Source of the DNA: Deltaproteobacteria bacterium
GTDB lineage: Bacteria > Desulfobacterota > Syntrophorhabdia > Syntrophorhabdales > Syntrophorhabdaceae
NCBI GenBank assembly: GCA_022711595.1
Contig: JAKLET010000013.1
Location: 1-64,000 of the forward strand
Length of the DNA: 64,000 nt
Direction of reading: 5' to 3'
The position numbers and the translations under genes are program-made. The notes under the pieces are model-generated. The model saw nothing but the letters and a program-made list of their open reading frames with translations, had not been told where the DNA came from and did no database searches. This document shows, one piece after another, positions 25,571 to 33,665 of the stretch; the first letter of the stretch is position 1; each line of letters opens with the position of its first letter.

Positions 25571-25891
25571 CTATTGTGTTCTCTGATACTGAACTACAGT
25601 ACCCTTGTCTATCTTGACGCGTACCTTCTCGGCAATCTCAATGGTGACACTGTCATCAGAAATTCCCGTTATTGTACCATACAAACCGCCTGATGTGACA
25701 ACTTTATCTCCCTTCTTCAGGTTCTCCAGAAAATCCTTATGCTGTTTGGCCCTTTTTTGCTGGGGTCGTATAAGGATGAAGTAGAAAATGGCAAAAACGG
25801 CCGCGATAAAGATAAGCGACGTGTACTGGCCCATTCCGCCCTGACCACCGCCCGCAGGATTGCTACCCATTGCAAACGCTACACCTATCAT
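25571..25891 (-). CDS. yajC: Preprotein translocase subunit YajC
   Basis: YajC is the small membrane partner of SecDF. The 106-residue protein has a glycine-rich N terminus, one membrane helix (SLIFIAAVFAIFYFILIRPQ) and the family core QQKRAKQHKDFLENLKKGDK, then VVTSGGLYGTITGI. ATG at 25891 has the strong site AAGGAGGTG upstream. It overlaps the end of tgt by 29 bases. The usual secD and secF do not follow; rpsF does. Confidence 0.93.
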   Translation of the reverse strand: MIGVAFAMGSNPAGGGQGGMGQYTSLIFIAAVFAIFYFILIRPQQKRAKQHKDFLENLKKGDKVVTSGGLYGTITGISDDSVTIEIAEKVRVKIDKGTVVQYQRTQ

Positions 25892-26999
25892 CTGATTCAC
25901 CTCCTTCGTAAAGTGTTTTAAAGCTCCGGTAATATTCGTCAAATGTTCCTGTGGTGATAGCATGACGAATTTTTCGCATGAGTTCCATATAAAAATGAAC
26001 ATTATGGATCGTATTCAGGTAAAAACTGGTCAATTCGTGAGAAACCAGCAGGTGCCTGAGGTAGGCCCTCGAAAAGGTCCTGCAGGTATAACACGAGCAG
26101 GTCCCGTCAATGGGACCTTCGTCATCGGTATATCTCGCGTTCTTGAGGTTCATCCTCCCCTCCCAGGTGAACATGGTGCCGTTCCTTGCAAGGCGGGTGG
26201 GAATGATGCAGTCGAACATGTCGATCCCCCGGCGGACACCCTCCATGAGGTCTTCCGGCATGCCGATACCCATCATGTAGCGCGGTTTGTCGGCAGGCAT
26301 CATGCCGATGACCGTGTCGACCATGTCCCACATAAGGCTCTTCGGTTCTCCCACGCTCAGTCCGCCTATGGCGAAGCCGTCAAAATCAAGGGCAAGGATA
26401 TCCCCGGCGCTGCGCAGCCTGAGATCGGGATAGAAACCGCCCTGGATGATCCCGAAGAGCTTCTGCCTTTCCGACGAACGGGCGGCAAGACAGCGGCGGG
26501 CCCATCGGGTCGTCAGTTCCACCGAATCCCTGGTATACTCAAAGGATGAGGGGTAGGATACACATTCATCGAGGCACATGGCGATATCGGCGCCTATATT
26601 CTCCTGTACCATGATCATTTTTTCCGGTGTCAGGAAATGGCGGGAACCGTCAATGTGGGACTGGAAGAGCACACCGTCCTCCTTGATCTCCCTCAGTACG
26701 CCGAGGCTGAATATCTGGTAGCCGCCGCTGTCGGTGAGGATGGCGCCGTTCCACCCTGAAAAACGGTGGAGCCCGCCCATCTTTCCGATAAGCTCATCAC
26801 CGGGACGCAGGTACAGGTGATAGGCATTTGAAAGGATCATCTGCACGCCAAGCTCCTCAAGCTGACCGTGGGTCATGGCCTTGACGATCCCCTGGGTCCC
26901 GACCGGCATAAAAACCGGCGTATCGACAACACCGTGGCCCGTAATGAGCCTTCCCGCACGCGCCTGACCGTCTTCCTTGAGTATCTCCATCGTCTTCAT
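25863..26999 (-). CDS. tgt: tRNA-guanine transglycosylase
   Basis: Tgt swaps guanine 34 of certain tRNAs for the preQ1 base. The 378-residue protein has PVFMPVGTQGIVKAMT, LSNAYHLYLRPG, ILTDSGGYQIFSL, the catalytic Asp region DGFAIGGLSVGEP, RYMMGIGMPEDL, and the zinc site CSCYTCRTFSRAYLRHL with its later His in TIHN. ATG at 26999 overlaps the queA stop (ATGA); a longer frame upstream is only a shadow of queA. Confidence 0.96.
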   Translation of the reverse strand: MKTMEILKEDGQARAGRLITGHGVVDTPVFMPVGTQGIVKAMTHGQLEELGVQMILSNAYHLYLRPGDELIGKMGGLHRFSGWNGAILTDSGGYQIFSLGVLREIKEDGVLFQSHIDGSRHFLTPEKMIMVQENIGADIAMCLDECVSYPSSFEYTRDSVELTTRWARRCLAARSSERQKLFGIIQGGFYPDLRLRSAGDILALDFDGFAIGGLSVGEPKSLMWDMVDTVIGMMPADKPRYMMGIGMPEDLMEGVRRGIDMFDCIIPTRLARNGTMFTWEGRMNLKNARYTDDEGPIDGTCSCYTCRTFSRAYLRHLLVSHELTSFYLNTIHNVHFYMELMRKIRHAITTGTFDEYYRSFKTLYEGGESDDRCSVCNG

Positions 27000-28015
27000 G
27001 CTATGAACATCGCGTCCCCGTAACTGTAAAACCTGTATCCTTCGTTTATCGCCTCCCTGTACGCACTTTGCAGGCCTTCCCTGCCCATGAAAGCGGCGGC
27101 GAGCATCAACGGCGTCGAGCGCGGCAGGTGAAAATTGGTGATAAGGGCGCCGACAACACGGAAATGGTAGCCGGGATAGATAAAAAGTTCTGTTTTTCCT
27201 GAAAGCGAACCGTTGCCGCCTTCCGAAAAAACCGTCTCCAGCGTCCTCACGGCGCTTGTACCGCACGCGACTATCCGGCGCCCGGCCGCCCTTGCTTTCG
27301 CTATGAGCGCCCTCGATGCCTCATCGAGCTCGTAGCTCTCGCCGTGCATCCTGTGCTCCTCCACCTCATCCGAATGTATCAGGGCGAATGTCCCTGTACC
27401 TATATGGAGGGTTATCCTTATTATGTCCACACCCTTTGAGCCGATCTGTTCAAGGAGCTCCCGGGAAAAATGGAAACCCGCCGTCGGCGCCGCTATGGAA
27501 CCGGTCTTCTCGGCATAAACGGTCTGGTAGCGTTCATAATCGACCCTGTTGTCTGCTCCGTTGCGCTTTATATAGGGCGGAAGAGGCATTTTACCGTGTT
27601 TTTTCAAGGCCTCTCCGGAGCTCTTCGCGGAATCGAAAGCTATCGTCCATGATGCTCCGCTTCGTCCCAGAGACGCAGGATAATCACCGACAGCAACGGA
27701 AACTTCGCTTTTACCCCTGCCGACTCCCCTGACAAGACATTCCCATGCGCCTTCCCCGAGAGGCCTCACGAGCAGGACATCGAGCAGACCTCCCGTCTTT
27801 TTACGCGCCTTGAGGCGTGCCGGGAAGACCTTGCTGTCATTCAGGACAAGCACATCCCCTTCATCCAGATATCCCGGGATATCTGAAAACCGGTGATGTC
27901 CGACAGTGCCCCGGGCCCTGTCATAAACGAGCAGACGAGAAGCGGTCCTGTCGCCCGACGGATGCTGGGCGATCAACTCCCGCGGTAATGTATAATCAAA
28001 TTCCTCGACTCTCAT
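26996..28015 (-). CDS. queA: S-adenosylmethionine:tRNA ribosyltransferase-isomerase
   Basis: QueA builds epoxyqueuosine on the base placed by Tgt. The 339 residues contain FDYTLPRELIAQHPSGDRTASRLLV, VLNDSKVFPARL, LPPYIKR, VYAEKTGSIAAPTAGFHFS and TNFHLPRSTPLMLAAAF, the family hallmarks. No Shine-Dalgarno sequence precedes the ATG; a GATATT -10-like box lies only 9 bases away. It is the first gene of the queA-tgt-yajC-rpsF run. Confidence 0.96.
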   Translation of the reverse strand: MRVEEFDYTLPRELIAQHPSGDRTASRLLVYDRARGTVGHHRFSDIPGYLDEGDVLVLNDSKVFPARLKARKKTGGLLDVLLVRPLGEGAWECLVRGVGRGKSEVSVAVGDYPASLGRSGASWTIAFDSAKSSGEALKKHGKMPLPPYIKRNGADNRVDYERYQTVYAEKTGSIAAPTAGFHFSRELLEQIGSKGVDIIRITLHIGTGTFALIHSDEVEEHRMHGESYELDEASRALIAKARAAGRRIVACGTSAVRTLETVFSEGGNGSLSGKTELFIYPGYHFRVVGALITNFHLPRSTPLMLAAAFMGREGLQSAYREAINEGYRFYSYGDAMFIA

Positions 28016-29715: not shown

Positions 29716-29845
29716 TTAAACCTCCTTACAAGGGCCATAAAGCAGGCATAAGAGCATTTTTGGAACGGACACTAGTATACCCTATCATTGACAGCCATGA
29801 AATACTTTTATACAATGGATGGCATCCGAATGAAGGAACGCCTGA

Positions 29846-30196
29846 ATGCCCTATAGAAGAACATCACAGTGGATCGTAGCCGGAGTTTCCACACTGATCA
29901 CGGTATTTTGCCTGTACGCCGCCATCGCAAATGCAAGAGGGGGCGACACGAGAGGAGTGTGGATATTCACAGCCTTTGCCTTTCTCTTCATGATACCGCT
30001 TTTTGTCACTGTCTTCCATTTTATCGCCGACAGAAGCCCTTCTCTGAAAAAGATACATGACAAATATCTGTCATCGGGTCAAAAACACAAAACAACATTC
30101 GCCCCTCACTGGTTCGTCATATCGGGAGTCATCCTTATAGGCCTTATTATGCTTTACGCCATCATAAAATGGCTCTTCATCTATTTCACCCGATGA
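29846..30196 (+). CDS. Small membrane protein, first gene of a coupled operon
   Basis: 116 residues with three hydrophobic helices (about 9-27, 39-59 and 89-112) and a short polar loop holding SPSLKKIHDKYLSSGQKH. I do not recognise the family. Its stop overlaps the start of the ParB-like gene as ATGA, so the two should be translated together. Confidence 0.6.
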   Translation: MPYRRTSQWIVAGVSTLITVFCLYAAIANARGGDTRGVWIFTAFAFLFMIPLFVTVFHFIADRSPSLKKIHDKYLSSGQKHKTTFAPHWFVISGVILIGLIMLYAIIKWLFIYFTR

Positions 30197-31101
30197 CAAA
30201 AATCCCCCTTTCGAAGATCGATCTGAAGGACAGGCGTTTCTCCATATCATATCCGCCGCGCGATGAAAAGCTCCTGTGGTCCATAGGCTCCATCGGGATT
30301 ATCCAGCCCGTCGTTCTTCTCGACAGGACGCCTTTTGTGCCCGTGGCCGGTTTAAAGCGCCTTCAATGCGCTCGCTCACTGCGCTTAAGGACGGTTGAGG
30401 CCGTAATAATGAACCTGAGCGACAGGGAGGCCCTGCTCATTTCCATTCATGACAATCTGTCTCGGGAACTCAACATTGTTGAAAAGGCCCTTGCCATCGG
30501 CAAGATGGACCTTTTCGGCCTGAGCGAAAAGGAGATCTTCGATGTAATGGAACACATGGGCCTTCAACCCCACAAAAAGGTCCTCTCGGGTTTTCTGGCT
30601 ATTGCCGGGTCGGATGAGGCCTTCAAGGACCTGGTCTTTGAGAAGAACCTCTCTTTCAGGAACATTGATTCGCTCATCAGGTTCGACGGAAGAGAGAGGG
30701 CAAAGATAGTCGGGAGGCTTAAAGGGCTCCATCTTACCGAAAGCACGCTGCGCGAGATACTTGAGATGCTTCACCTGCTGAAAATAAGGAAAGGTTCGAT
30801 CACCGCAGCGGACATCCCCCGGTCGGAGAATGCGGACACCCTGAGGGCCCACCTCAAGAGGAAAACCCATCCCATCCTCACATCTCTCCAGGAAAAACTG
30901 AAGGTTATCCGGGAGGCCATGGCCCTGCCGCCGGGCGTGGATATTAAGGTAGACCCTTTCTTTGAAAAGGAGTATATTGATATAATATTGAAAATATGCA
31001 ACGAAGAGGATGTCGCGAAGGCACTCGCCGGTATATCCGGGTTGTTACAGGCGGGATATGTGAGGAGTATCCTTGAGCTTACAAAAGGCAGAGTTCGTTG
31101 A
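30193..31101 (+). CDS. ParB-like protein
   Basis: The first 100 residues follow the ParB/Spo0J N-terminal domain: IPLSKIDLKDRRF, LLWSIGSIGIIQPVVLL, VPVAGLKRLQCARSL and EALLISIHDNLSRELNIVEKA. The usual GERRxRA box is GLKRLQCA. A helix-turn-helix segment may lie at about 110-140. The last part is helical. It is not next to parA, so chromosome partition is unlikely; a specialised DNA-binding or CTP-switch role is possible. Start at 30193 (ATGA overlap) is preferred over 30169. The following radical SAM gene starts inside it. Confidence 0.75.
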   Translation: MTKIPLSKIDLKDRRFSISYPPRDEKLLWSIGSIGIIQPVVLLDRTPFVPVAGLKRLQCARSLRLRTVEAVIMNLSDREALLISIHDNLSRELNIVEKALAIGKMDLFGLSEKEIFDVMEHMGLQPHKKVLSGFLAIAGSDEAFKDLVFEKNLSFRNIDSLIRFDGRERAKIVGRLKGLHLTESTLREILEMLHLLKIRKGSITAADIPRSENADTLRAHLKRKTHPILTSLQEKLKVIREAMALPPGVDIKVDPFFEKEYIDIILKICNEEDVAKALAGISGLLQAGYVRSILELTKGRVR

Positions 31102-32020
31102 AACAAAAGGCGGTGTGGTCAGAAAATGTCCCGGTACCAAAAACCACATCTGCTGTGGTTATCAGACGATCGACCTCGTCGAAGGCTGCGTGCTTGACTG
31201 CTCCTACTGCATCCTCAAGGCCTACCTCAGAGACGACAGGATAAAGATCACCCGCGGTGAAGACGCGATCATCTCCGAACTCAACAACACCATTGACAAT
31301 GCCGGAGGCCACATCCCGCGCTTCGGAACCGGAGAGCTCTCCGATAGCCTTGCCATCGACAGGCGATACAAGCTCAATCGTTTTCTCCTGGAATACTTCG
31401 GAAAAAAGAAAAAGGCCATACTGGAGCTGAAATCAAAATGGGCCGACTTCGGTCATCTTTCAGAACACTTGAACCCGTACACGGTCATTTCTTTCTCCGT
31501 TTCACCGCAAAGGTTCATCGACGCGGAAGAAAAGAGGACGAGTCCCCTGTATAAGCGCCTCAAGGCGGCAAGGGCAGCCCAGGAACTCGGCTGTTTCGTC
31601 GGTCTGCACCTGGATCCCATCGTCATCTACGACGGATTCGAAAAGGACTACCGGTACCTCATCGGGGACATAGGCAGGATTCTGGATCCGTCGAAGATCA
31701 TCTGGATAAGCCTGGGGCTGCTCAGGTTCCCTCCCGCCATGTACGGGCTCCTCCTGGAAAGAAAGAGAAAGTACCTCCTGACCGGGGAGTTCATCCGGGG
31801 CGAAGACGGCAAATACCGTTATATAAAGACCGAACGCATCCGGATATTCAGGATGCTCTACCGGCTCCTGAAAGACATAGACAAGGGCCTTTTCGTCTAT
31901 CTCTGCATGGAAAGGGCTGACGTATGGCGTGAATCCACAGGAATCGAATTGAAAGACAGCGAGGGCCTCATCGGGCTCTTCGACAAACGGATCAAGAACA
32001 TATACGGAGGTGCGTTATGA
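31073..32020 (+). CDS. Radical SAM protein related to spore photoproduct lyase
   Basis: The motif GCVLDCSYCILKAYL (CxxxCxxC, about residues 39-46) with an upstream CPGTKNHICCGY segment matches the SPL-like radical SAM group. Further family-like segments are RFGTGELSDSLAID, ELKSKWADF and VISFSVSPQRFI, and then HLDPIVIYDGFEKDY. SPL itself repairs thymine dimers in spores; non-spore relatives have unknown substrates. TTG at 31073 has GAGGAG five bases upstream and overlaps the ParB-like gene by 29 bases. The gene for the SDR protein begins at its stop. Confidence 0.82.
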   Translation: MSLQKAEFVETKGGVVRKCPGTKNHICCGYQTIDLVEGCVLDCSYCILKAYLRDDRIKITRGEDAIISELNNTIDNAGGHIPRFGTGELSDSLAIDRRYKLNRFLLEYFGKKKKAILELKSKWADFGHLSEHLNPYTVISFSVSPQRFIDAEEKRTSPLYKRLKAARAAQELGCFVGLHLDPIVIYDGFEKDYRYLIGDIGRILDPSKIIWISLGLLRFPPAMYGLLLERKRKYLLTGEFIRGEDGKYRYIKTERIRIFRMLYRLLKDIDKGLFVYLCMERADVWRESTGIELKDSEGLIGLFDKRIKNIYGGAL

Positions 32021-32802
32021 GATTTCAGGAAAAGGTTGTTTTTATCACCGGCGGGGCCAGAGGACTTGGCAAGACAATGGCCCAGGCCTTCCTTTCAGAG
32101 GGTGCGACGGTCGCCGTGAACGGCAGGGACGCACAGGCCGTTTCGCGTTTCACGGAAGAGTTCATGGGTCAGCAGGTCCTCGCCTTTGAAACGGACATCG
32201 CGGACCAGGGGGCCGTGGAAGCAATGGCTTCAAAGGTCTATGAAACGCTGGGCAAGGTTGACATCCTCATCAACAACGCCGGCGTGGTCAATCCCCTGGT
32301 TCCTTCGGAAAAGATAAAGAAGGACGATTTCGACAGGGTCATCGACATCAATATAAAAGGCACATTCTACGTCACACAGGCTTTCGGCAAAAGAATGGTG
32401 GGGCACGGGTCGGGCCGCATCATCAACATCGCCTCGCAGGTTGCCCTTTTCGGCGAAAAAGGGTTTTTGCCCTATGCGGTCAGCAAATCAGCTCTCATGG
32501 TAATGGCCCGGCAACTGGCCTACGAGTGGTCAAAGTCCGGCGTGACCATCTGCACCGTTGCTCCCGGTTTCATAAAGGGCGGCATGAACGAAGGGCTCAT
32601 CAAAAAAGAAGCCTTCGTTAACTACCTCTCGGGCAGAACTCCCATCGGAAGGATGGGAACCGTGGAAGAGCTTGTCTCGACCATACTGTTCCTTTCATCG
32701 GATGACGCCCGTTACATCAACGGTGAAACCATTGTCATGGACGGCGGCATGACAGGCTACACCGCCGAGGGGCTTCTCGACTTTATATCCAAAGGGAAGT
32801 AG
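32017..32802 (+). CDS. Short-chain dehydrogenase/reductase
   Basis: A 261-residue classical SDR: cofactor loop FITGGARGLGKTMA, LINNAGVVNP, the catalytic Ser in IINIASQVALFG, YAVSK with Tyr and Lys, and the end INGETIVMDGGM. GRDAQ after the second strand favours NADP (inference). It overlaps the preceding radical SAM gene (ATGA). The substrate is unknown. Confidence 0.9.
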   Translation: MRFQEKVVFITGGARGLGKTMAQAFLSEGATVAVNGRDAQAVSRFTEEFMGQQVLAFETDIADQGAVEAMASKVYETLGKVDILINNAGVVNPLVPSEKIKKDDFDRVIDINIKGTFYVTQAFGKRMVGHGSGRIINIASQVALFGEKGFLPYAVSKSALMVMARQLAYEWSKSGVTICTVAPGFIKGGMNEGLIKKEAFVNYLSGRTPIGRMGTVEELVSTILFLSSDDARYINGETIVMDGGMTGYTAEGLLDFISKGK

Positions 32803-32805
32803 TGA

Positions 32806-33462
32806 ATGGACATCATCCCCTTTATCCGCTTCACCATCAATTCACGCTACATAACACGCTGGATATACGGGGGGCTTGCCCTTTTCATCCCGGTGCTCAA
32901 TTTTTTCTCCATCGGTTTTCTGTCAAGAACTTCGCGGCTCGTCCTCGTCGGGGGGATGGGCCTTGCCACGTGGCAGGAAAGATACGAAATATGGCTGGAA
33001 GGTGTGAAACTGCTTTTTGTTTTCATACTTTACAATGCCATACCATTCTTTATGTTCTCAAGCGGTTTCTTCCTCACAACGCTTAACAGCTTCACTGCAT
33101 TTTTCGGTCACCTGGTGATCAAGCTTGCCGTTTTTATCATATTCCCTGTCTGCTCCTTCTTTTTACCCTTCGCCTTTACCATCTTTGCCGAGCGTGCCGA
33201 TTTCCGCGAGGCCCTCGAATTCGAGAGTATCCTCAGGGGTATCAAAGAGGTGCTTGTCGAATACATAATCGGCTACATCGCCACCATCGCAGCCTTATAT
33301 ATCGCCCTGCTCTTCATGCACATCCCCTACCTGATAGGTTTTGTCCTCTCGTCGATCCTCACCTATTACGCCCTGCTCCTCTCCGCCTTTTATTTCACCG
33401 GACTCTACCGGAAAACAAGCCTCTGCATGCAAAGGATACCGGAGGAAGAGACGGAAACATAG
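32806..33462 (+). CDS. DUF4013-like membrane protein
   Basis: The 218-residue protein has about five hydrophobic segments with FIPVLNFFSIGFLSRTSRL, TWQERYEIWLEGVKLL and LPFAFTIFAERADFREALE, an arrangement typical of DUF4013 proteins, whose function is unknown. It lies 3 bases after the SDR stop and closes the coupled five-gene run. Confidence 0.7.
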   Translation: MDIIPFIRFTINSRYITRWIYGGLALFIPVLNFFSIGFLSRTSRLVLVGGMGLATWQERYEIWLEGVKLLFVFILYNAIPFFMFSSGFFLTTLNSFTAFFGHLVIKLAVFIIFPVCSFFLPFAFTIFAERADFREALEFESILRGIKEVLVEYIIGYIATIAALYIALLFMHIPYLIGFVLSSILTYYALLLSAFYFTGLYRKTSLCMQRIPEEETET

Positions 33463-33589: not shown

Positions 33590-33665
33590 GGTGGCTGTAG
33601 CTCAATGGCGGAGCATCGGATTGTGGTTCCGAGGGTTGCGGGTTCAAGTCCCGTCAGCCACCCCA
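33590..33665 (+). tRNA. tRNA-His (anticodon GTG)
   Basis: GTGGCTG pairs with CAGCCAC, with an extra G at position -1 as in all tRNA-His. The anticodon stem TCGGA/TCCGA closes the loop TTGTGGT (anticodon GTG), and the T arm is GGTTCAAGTCC. CCA is encoded at 33663-33665, unlike the other tRNAs in this window. A TTGACT at 33547 is a possible -35 box. Confidence 0.96.

Follow-up and report, generated by a model that had tools for sequence, protein, structure and literature searches.

An operon of five open reading frames (ORFs), on the plus strand at 29846-33462 of a 64,000-nucleotide stretch of Syntrophorhabdus DNA (GenBank contig JAKLET010000013.1, positions 1 to 64,000; hereafter the window), couples a gene for a ParB-like protein to one for a radical S-adenosylmethionine (SAM) enzyme related to spore photoproduct lyase (SPL). 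Our analysis shows that these two genes are inherited together across many phyla, even where they lie far apart in the genome, and their products are probably the two parts of an undescribed machine that works on DNA or RNA. The initial annotation of this stretch took all five genes as one uncommon set and suggested an undescribed system of DNA or nucleotide modification or repair; the conserved set proves to be smaller, and the proposed function is still the leading idea. We found no description of a ParB-like/SPL-like pair in the open-licence literature, which is what the search covered.

Co-inheritance of the two genes

In nearly every relative from the window's order whose contig is long enough, the ParB-like gene, the SPL-like gene, a gene for a short-chain dehydrogenase/reductase (SDR) and one for a DUF4013 membrane protein follow each other in the same order, and this repetition across relatives indicates that the arrangement is not due to chance. 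Outside that order only the ParB-like/SPL-like pair is general, with the SDR added in a few families (it also follows the SPL-like gene in L046, L076, L077, L080 and L086). The core of the operon is the pair, and the SDR and DUF4013 genes are extras at the level of the order; beyond the genus, the 116-residue membrane protein that opens the operon was detected in just one other genome of the family (L019), so the five genes do not stand as a unit. A scan of named genomes found the SPL-like enzyme in Desulfobacterota, Neomarinimicrobiota, KSB1, Zixibacteria, Aerophobetes, Omnitrophota, Spirochaetes, Acidobacteria and others, and at 45 of the 65 loci outside the window's order (L074-L138) the SPL-like gene is preceded on its own strand by a ParB-like gene, which mostly overlaps it or lies a few bases away. 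Cultured bacteria that have the pair include Desulfacinum hydrothermale (L116) and Desulfacinum infernum (L119). The gene-neighbourhood comparison suggested in the initial annotation thus finds the pair conserved far beyond the species, in many phyla.

Co-occurrence was counted in 197 genomes of the window's phylum that are at least 90% complete, using match lists in which full ParB-like proteins were separated from canonical ParB by a cut that we set at about E 1e-29, together with the part of the model covered. Both genes are present in 101 genomes and neither in 82, the SPL-like gene alone occurs in 10 and the ParB-like gene alone in 4 (Fisher p 1e-38); collapsed to families, the same four classes hold 40, 31, 5 and 2, and joint absence is seen within families 11, 12, 17 and 76. 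As a control, Rho_N, which often lies beside the ParB-like gene, reaches p 0.006 only. The two genes are adjacent in 65 of the 101 genomes that have both and apart in the other 36, and because co-occurrence persists in the latter, the coupling is very likely functional and not merely positional. The pairwise distances of the two proteins are also correlated (r 0.91, 42 pairs).

At least five of the SPL-only genomes have a truncated or diverged ParB-like gene next to the SPL-like gene: in G081, G098, G114 and G172 a short gene directly upstream has a match to the ParB-like model that is confined to the C-terminal half, and in G224 a diverged, longer ParB-like gene lies directly beside it. Among 19 genomes from several phyla whose SPL-like locus has no adjacent ParB-like gene, 15 have one elsewhere; the remaining four are metagenome-assembled genomes of 1.1-1.9 Mb, in which the absence is perhaps due to incompleteness. 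Where the ParB-like gene is not adjacent it is directly preceded by PurC at L142, L147, L155, L167, L169, L170 and other loci, often with a small Rho_N-domain protein ahead of PurC. This small protein was rejected as a third partner, being absent from the window's order and weakly associated by the p-value given above.

The ParB-like protein and the SPL-like enzyme

The domain calls of the initial annotation are borne out by Pfam, with E-values of 2.4e-6 for ParB_N, 7.3e-19 for PF20903 (SPL family), 1e-56 for SDR and 6.8e-12 for DUF4013. The ParB-like protein scores 27.9 bits against a ParB_N (PF02195) cut-off of 26.3, and over residues 1-200 its AlphaFold2 (AF2) model matches the ParB, KorB and Noc folds at Z ~9-11.5. 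It is built of a ParB_N/CTPase-fold domain, a ParB-like helical middle and a C-terminal domain of its own, for which nothing above Z ~4 was found in a search made only as part of the whole AF2 model. Pro227 is invariant, and Box II GxxR and Box III N..R are largely kept across ParB-like sequences. The protein is not a chromosomal ParB, which is ruled out by its scores against the canonical ParB model (TIGR00180, 28.4 bits, cut-off 58.45) and the Noc model (TIGR04285, 42.4 bits, cut-off 315), by a canonical ParB candidate (the best ParB_N match) on contig C12 and by an exact parS on contig C17. No ParA-binding motif was found in the protein, and no parS with up to 3 mismatches in the window.

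With orphan ParB-fold proteins such as Noc and KorB it shares the ParB_N fold, the GxxR and N..R motifs, the helical middle and the lack of a ParA partner in the operon, but it differs from them in being coupled to a radical SAM enzyme, in its C-terminal domain and in an N-domain that is sometimes degenerate or lost. Its motifs and predicted structure suggest an orphan ParB-fold nucleoside triphosphate (NTP) switch, the nucleotide probably being cytidine triphosphate. Such orphan switches are widespread and their roles are largely unknown (PMC12704722); the main text of that survey makes no mention of radical SAM or photoproduct. Truncated forms at L174, L175, L176 and L177 match only model positions ~140-294 of 295, and the N-domain is dispensable in some lineages.

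The SPL-like protein belongs to the SPL superfamily (68.3 bits for PF20903, Pfam cut-off 27) and has both the CxxxCxxC motif and the SPL barrel. SPL is the nearest solved fold to its AF2 model (predicted local distance difference test, pLDDT, 93.9; Z 29.3, root-mean-square deviation 2.1 A over 271 residues), with the next radical SAM families at Z 15, and the protein falls in no family of known unrelated function. It is an SPL-fold radical SAM enzyme but not a spore photoproduct lyase: it scores 78.8 bits against the SPL equivalog TIGR04070, whose cut-off is 400, and in an alignment with wild-type SPL (4fhc) and Bacillus SplB the catalytic Cys141 (Bs numbering) corresponds to Glu88, which is invariant in 79 relatives, while the radical-relay Tyr97 is kept as Tyr45 and Tyr99 has become Ile47. 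Because of the changes at Cys141 and Tyr99, classical photoproduct-lyase chemistry appears unlikely. The GTGE that contains Glu88 would be an ordinary SAM-binding motif of the GGE type. Beyond the cluster cysteines, C19, C28 and C278 are invariant and C27 nearly so (79 sequences for C19, C27 and C28), and these residues could hold a second cluster or provide a hydrogen donor.

Besides the barrel and CxxxCxxC, the enzyme has in common with SplB (TIGR04070; PDB 4FHC) the Tyr before the third Cys and the hairpin residues K247 and Y250. Apart from the Glu and Ile replacements, it differs in its own CPGT...CCGY motif, which is absent from SplB, in a shorter hairpin, in a C-terminal extension with YLCMExxxVW and, in the window's order, in the loss of the N-terminal domain; its partner is the ParB-like protein, whereas that of SplB is SplA.

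SPL-like genes are also found in other company. A THEP1-type NTPase (NTPase_1) gene, not ParB, precedes the SPL-like gene at L045:2404-2940 and L088:5224-5802, and in Fusobacterium (L183:1052-2923) an SPL-like domain appears by eye to be fused behind a domain of nucleoside-phosphorylase type. Another SPL-like branch overlaps a three-Cys-motif-partner-like gene (L056:3353-5585, L057:3514-5607 and L058:5106-7458), the two being apparently fused in a single 698-codon frame in L057, and these pairs adjoin a large gene that by eye is modification-methylase-like. They resemble the pair in the window in that an SPL-superfamily enzyme has a tightly coupled partner gene, but they differ from it in that their SPL branch is without CPGT..CCGY, their partner is not ParB-like and their neighbours are modification-methylase-like.

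Possible roles of the pair

The reading that we favour, at somewhat short of an even chance, is that the pair consists of an NTP-switch adaptor and a radical SAM enzyme with nucleic acid as its target. This reading rests above all on the two folds, SPL and ParB; ThiI/NFACT-R_2 and SNase genes also give it a nucleic-acid-related context in some clades. Since the pair is conserved and the enzyme groups with no unrelated family, nucleic-acid modification or repair stays the leading idea, and co-inheritance of the two genes makes it more credible; the part of the original suggestion that would mean strict photoproduct repair is unlikely in view of Glu88 and Ile47. The ParB-like protein would bind nucleotide and form a physical complex with the enzyme: binding to the enzyme and serving it would most likely fall to the C-terminal domain, and loading of the pair onto nucleic acid probably to the N-terminal and helical domains. 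The SPL-like enzyme would then most likely modify or restore a DNA or RNA base or sugar.

Several observations weigh against this proposal. The NTP pocket is degenerate in the ParB-like forms of Neomarinimicrobiota and the N-domain is missing in a few clades, and sequence-specific DNA binding is uncertain because no Pfam helix-turn-helix match was found in the middle domain. The neighbours of the pair differ (PurC, GT2, SDR, NifU, Asd) and agree on no single pathway, the co-occurrence p-values ignore kinship among the genomes, the correlation between the distances of the two proteins may come from shared species history alone, and the substrate itself is a prediction.

Alternatively, the enzyme could act on a protein, a lipid or a small molecule together with the SDR and the membrane proteins, the ParB-like protein serving as a scaffold, which we consider doubtful. 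The SDR gene is coupled to the SPL-like gene by an ATGA overlap, SDR, GT2 or PurC genes recur nearby, and the barrel is also found, at Z ~15, in radical SAM enzymes that act on peptides and cofactors; however, the SDR and DUF4013 genes are absent beside most pairs outside the window's order, and the similarity to SPL is twice that to any peptide or cofactor enzyme.

A special case of the nucleic-acid proposal, contained in the chance that we give to it and by itself slightly more doubtful still, is that the pair modifies RNA (tRNA or rRNA) specifically, with the ParB-like adaptor presenting the RNA or gating the enzyme. In one clade a gene with ThiI and RNA-binding NFACT-R_2 overlaps the end of the SPL-like gene (L045:4056-5027, L173:5035-6006), RNase PH and RdgB genes, named by eye, come after it in L143 and L168, and a gene for a DRG-type TGS GTPase follows it directly at L075:1837-2784 and L084:6887-7840. 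ParB-fold fusions to RNA domains have also been reported (PMC12704722). Each of these contexts is confined to a clade, however, and the nearest fold is that of a DNA repair enzyme; in sum, the neighbourhood hints weakly at RNA in some clades and gives no consistent picture overall.

Far less probable is true SPL-like repair of ultraviolet (UV) damage, in which the hydrogen donor would have moved to the cysteines of CCGY. The fold and the K247 and Y250 shared with SplB are consistent with it, and C28 and C27 align no more than three residues away from Gt Ser76, which is replaced by Cys in structure 4rh0. In the SPL of Clostridium acetobutylicum, too, the conserved cysteine (C74) sits at the opposite side of the pocket (PMC5368176), and this active cysteine would, from that paper and the title of 4rh0, be the counterpart of Gt Ser76. 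The replacement of Cys141 and Tyr99 and the low score against the SPL equivalog argue against such repair. Most of the hosts do not form spores and come from dark habitats, which counts against it as well; hosts like the Syntrophorhabdus of digesters grow without light, and therefore the UV phenotype that the initial annotation would have looked for in a deletion is not expected.

It is slightly less probable again that the ParB-like protein is no partner of the enzyme and instead regulates the transcription of an ordinary metabolic operon: KorB and VirB (PMC11790492, PMC10770331) provide precedent for gene regulation by orphan ParB proteins, but co-occurrence holds despite non-adjacency, truncated forms keep the C-terminal half only, and the neighbours other than the enzyme change. 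A defence system was rejected, as PADLOC gave nothing beyond a weak MTase_II match over the ParB_N region, and so was a viral or mobile origin, with no relative among viral contigs and one remote phage match (25% identity). The plasmid collection gave two remote matches, one of which is splB itself.

The operon in the window and its wider meaning

The features of the operon are collected in Table 1. All five ORFs, the ATGA overlaps at 30193 and 32017 and the 29-base overlap at 31073 with its ribosome site lie exactly where the initial annotation had placed them. The AGGAG that belongs to this last overlap is 5 bases ahead of the TTG start of the SPL-like gene, which is kept in 23 of 23 relatives checked, and an AGGAG-like site is present in most of them. 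In the relatives' alignment of the promoter region no palindrome that could be an operator was evident by eye. The Noc site (NBS) pattern, with up to 3 mismatches, has 14 matches in the window against 5.4 expected, none of them near the operon; a palindrome, ATATCCCGGGATAT, is found at 27869-27882 of the window. A few kb upstream of the operon, on the minus strand at 25571-28015, lie genes named by eye as YajC, Tgt and QueA (queuosine), and a tRNA-His gene is located downstream at 33591.

Table 1. Coordinates of the operon's genes, signals and motifs in the window
Feature	Position	Strand	Remarks
Promoter, TTGACA-17-TACAAT	29788..29816	+	single sigma-70-like promoter, 11/12 consensus positions; core kept in 8 genus members
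Small membrane (transmembrane) protein, 116 aa	29846..30196	+	ORF; outside the conserved core
ParB-like orphan ParB-fold protein, 302 aa	30193..31101	+	Pfam ParB_N; AF2 pLDDT 94.3; ParB/KorB/Noc folds
C-terminal half of ParB-like protein (residues ~150-302)	30640..31098	+	portion kept in truncated forms beside SPL-like genes
AGGAG, internal ribosome-binding site of SPL-like gene	31063..31067	+	inside the ParB-like gene
SPL-like radical SAM enzyme, 315 aa, TTG start	31073..32020	+	PF20903; AF2 model; SPL fold
Motif CPGTKNHICCGY (CPGT...CCGY), residues 19-30 of SPL-like protein	31127..31162	+	defines the subfamily
CxxxCxxC radical SAM cluster motif (C39, C43, C46)	31187..31210	+	invariant
GTGELSDS motif, residues 85-92 of SPL-like protein	31325..31348	+	Glu88 at the SPL catalytic-Cys position (alignment to 4fhc, SplB)
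SDR oxidoreductase, 261 aa	32017..32802	+	order-level partner; overlapping ATGA with SPL-like gene
DUF4013 membrane protein, 218 aa	32806..33462	+	order-level partner

The SPL-like enzyme represents a large branch of the SPL superfamily with invariant cysteines of its own. On the ParB side, co-inheritance that persists where the genes are unlinked connects an orphan ParB-fold switch with one specific enzyme, which offers such a switch a definite partner for study. Should nucleic acid prove to be the target, the pair would amount to a radical enzyme delivered by a clamp, a principle of which we know no other case. It is possible, although we think it unlikely in this full form, that many phyla of mostly uncultured bacteria possess a new kind of two-component system for nucleic-acid modification or repair, whose ParB-type, NTP-gated clamp moves a radical SAM enzyme along DNA or RNA for a reaction that has not been described.

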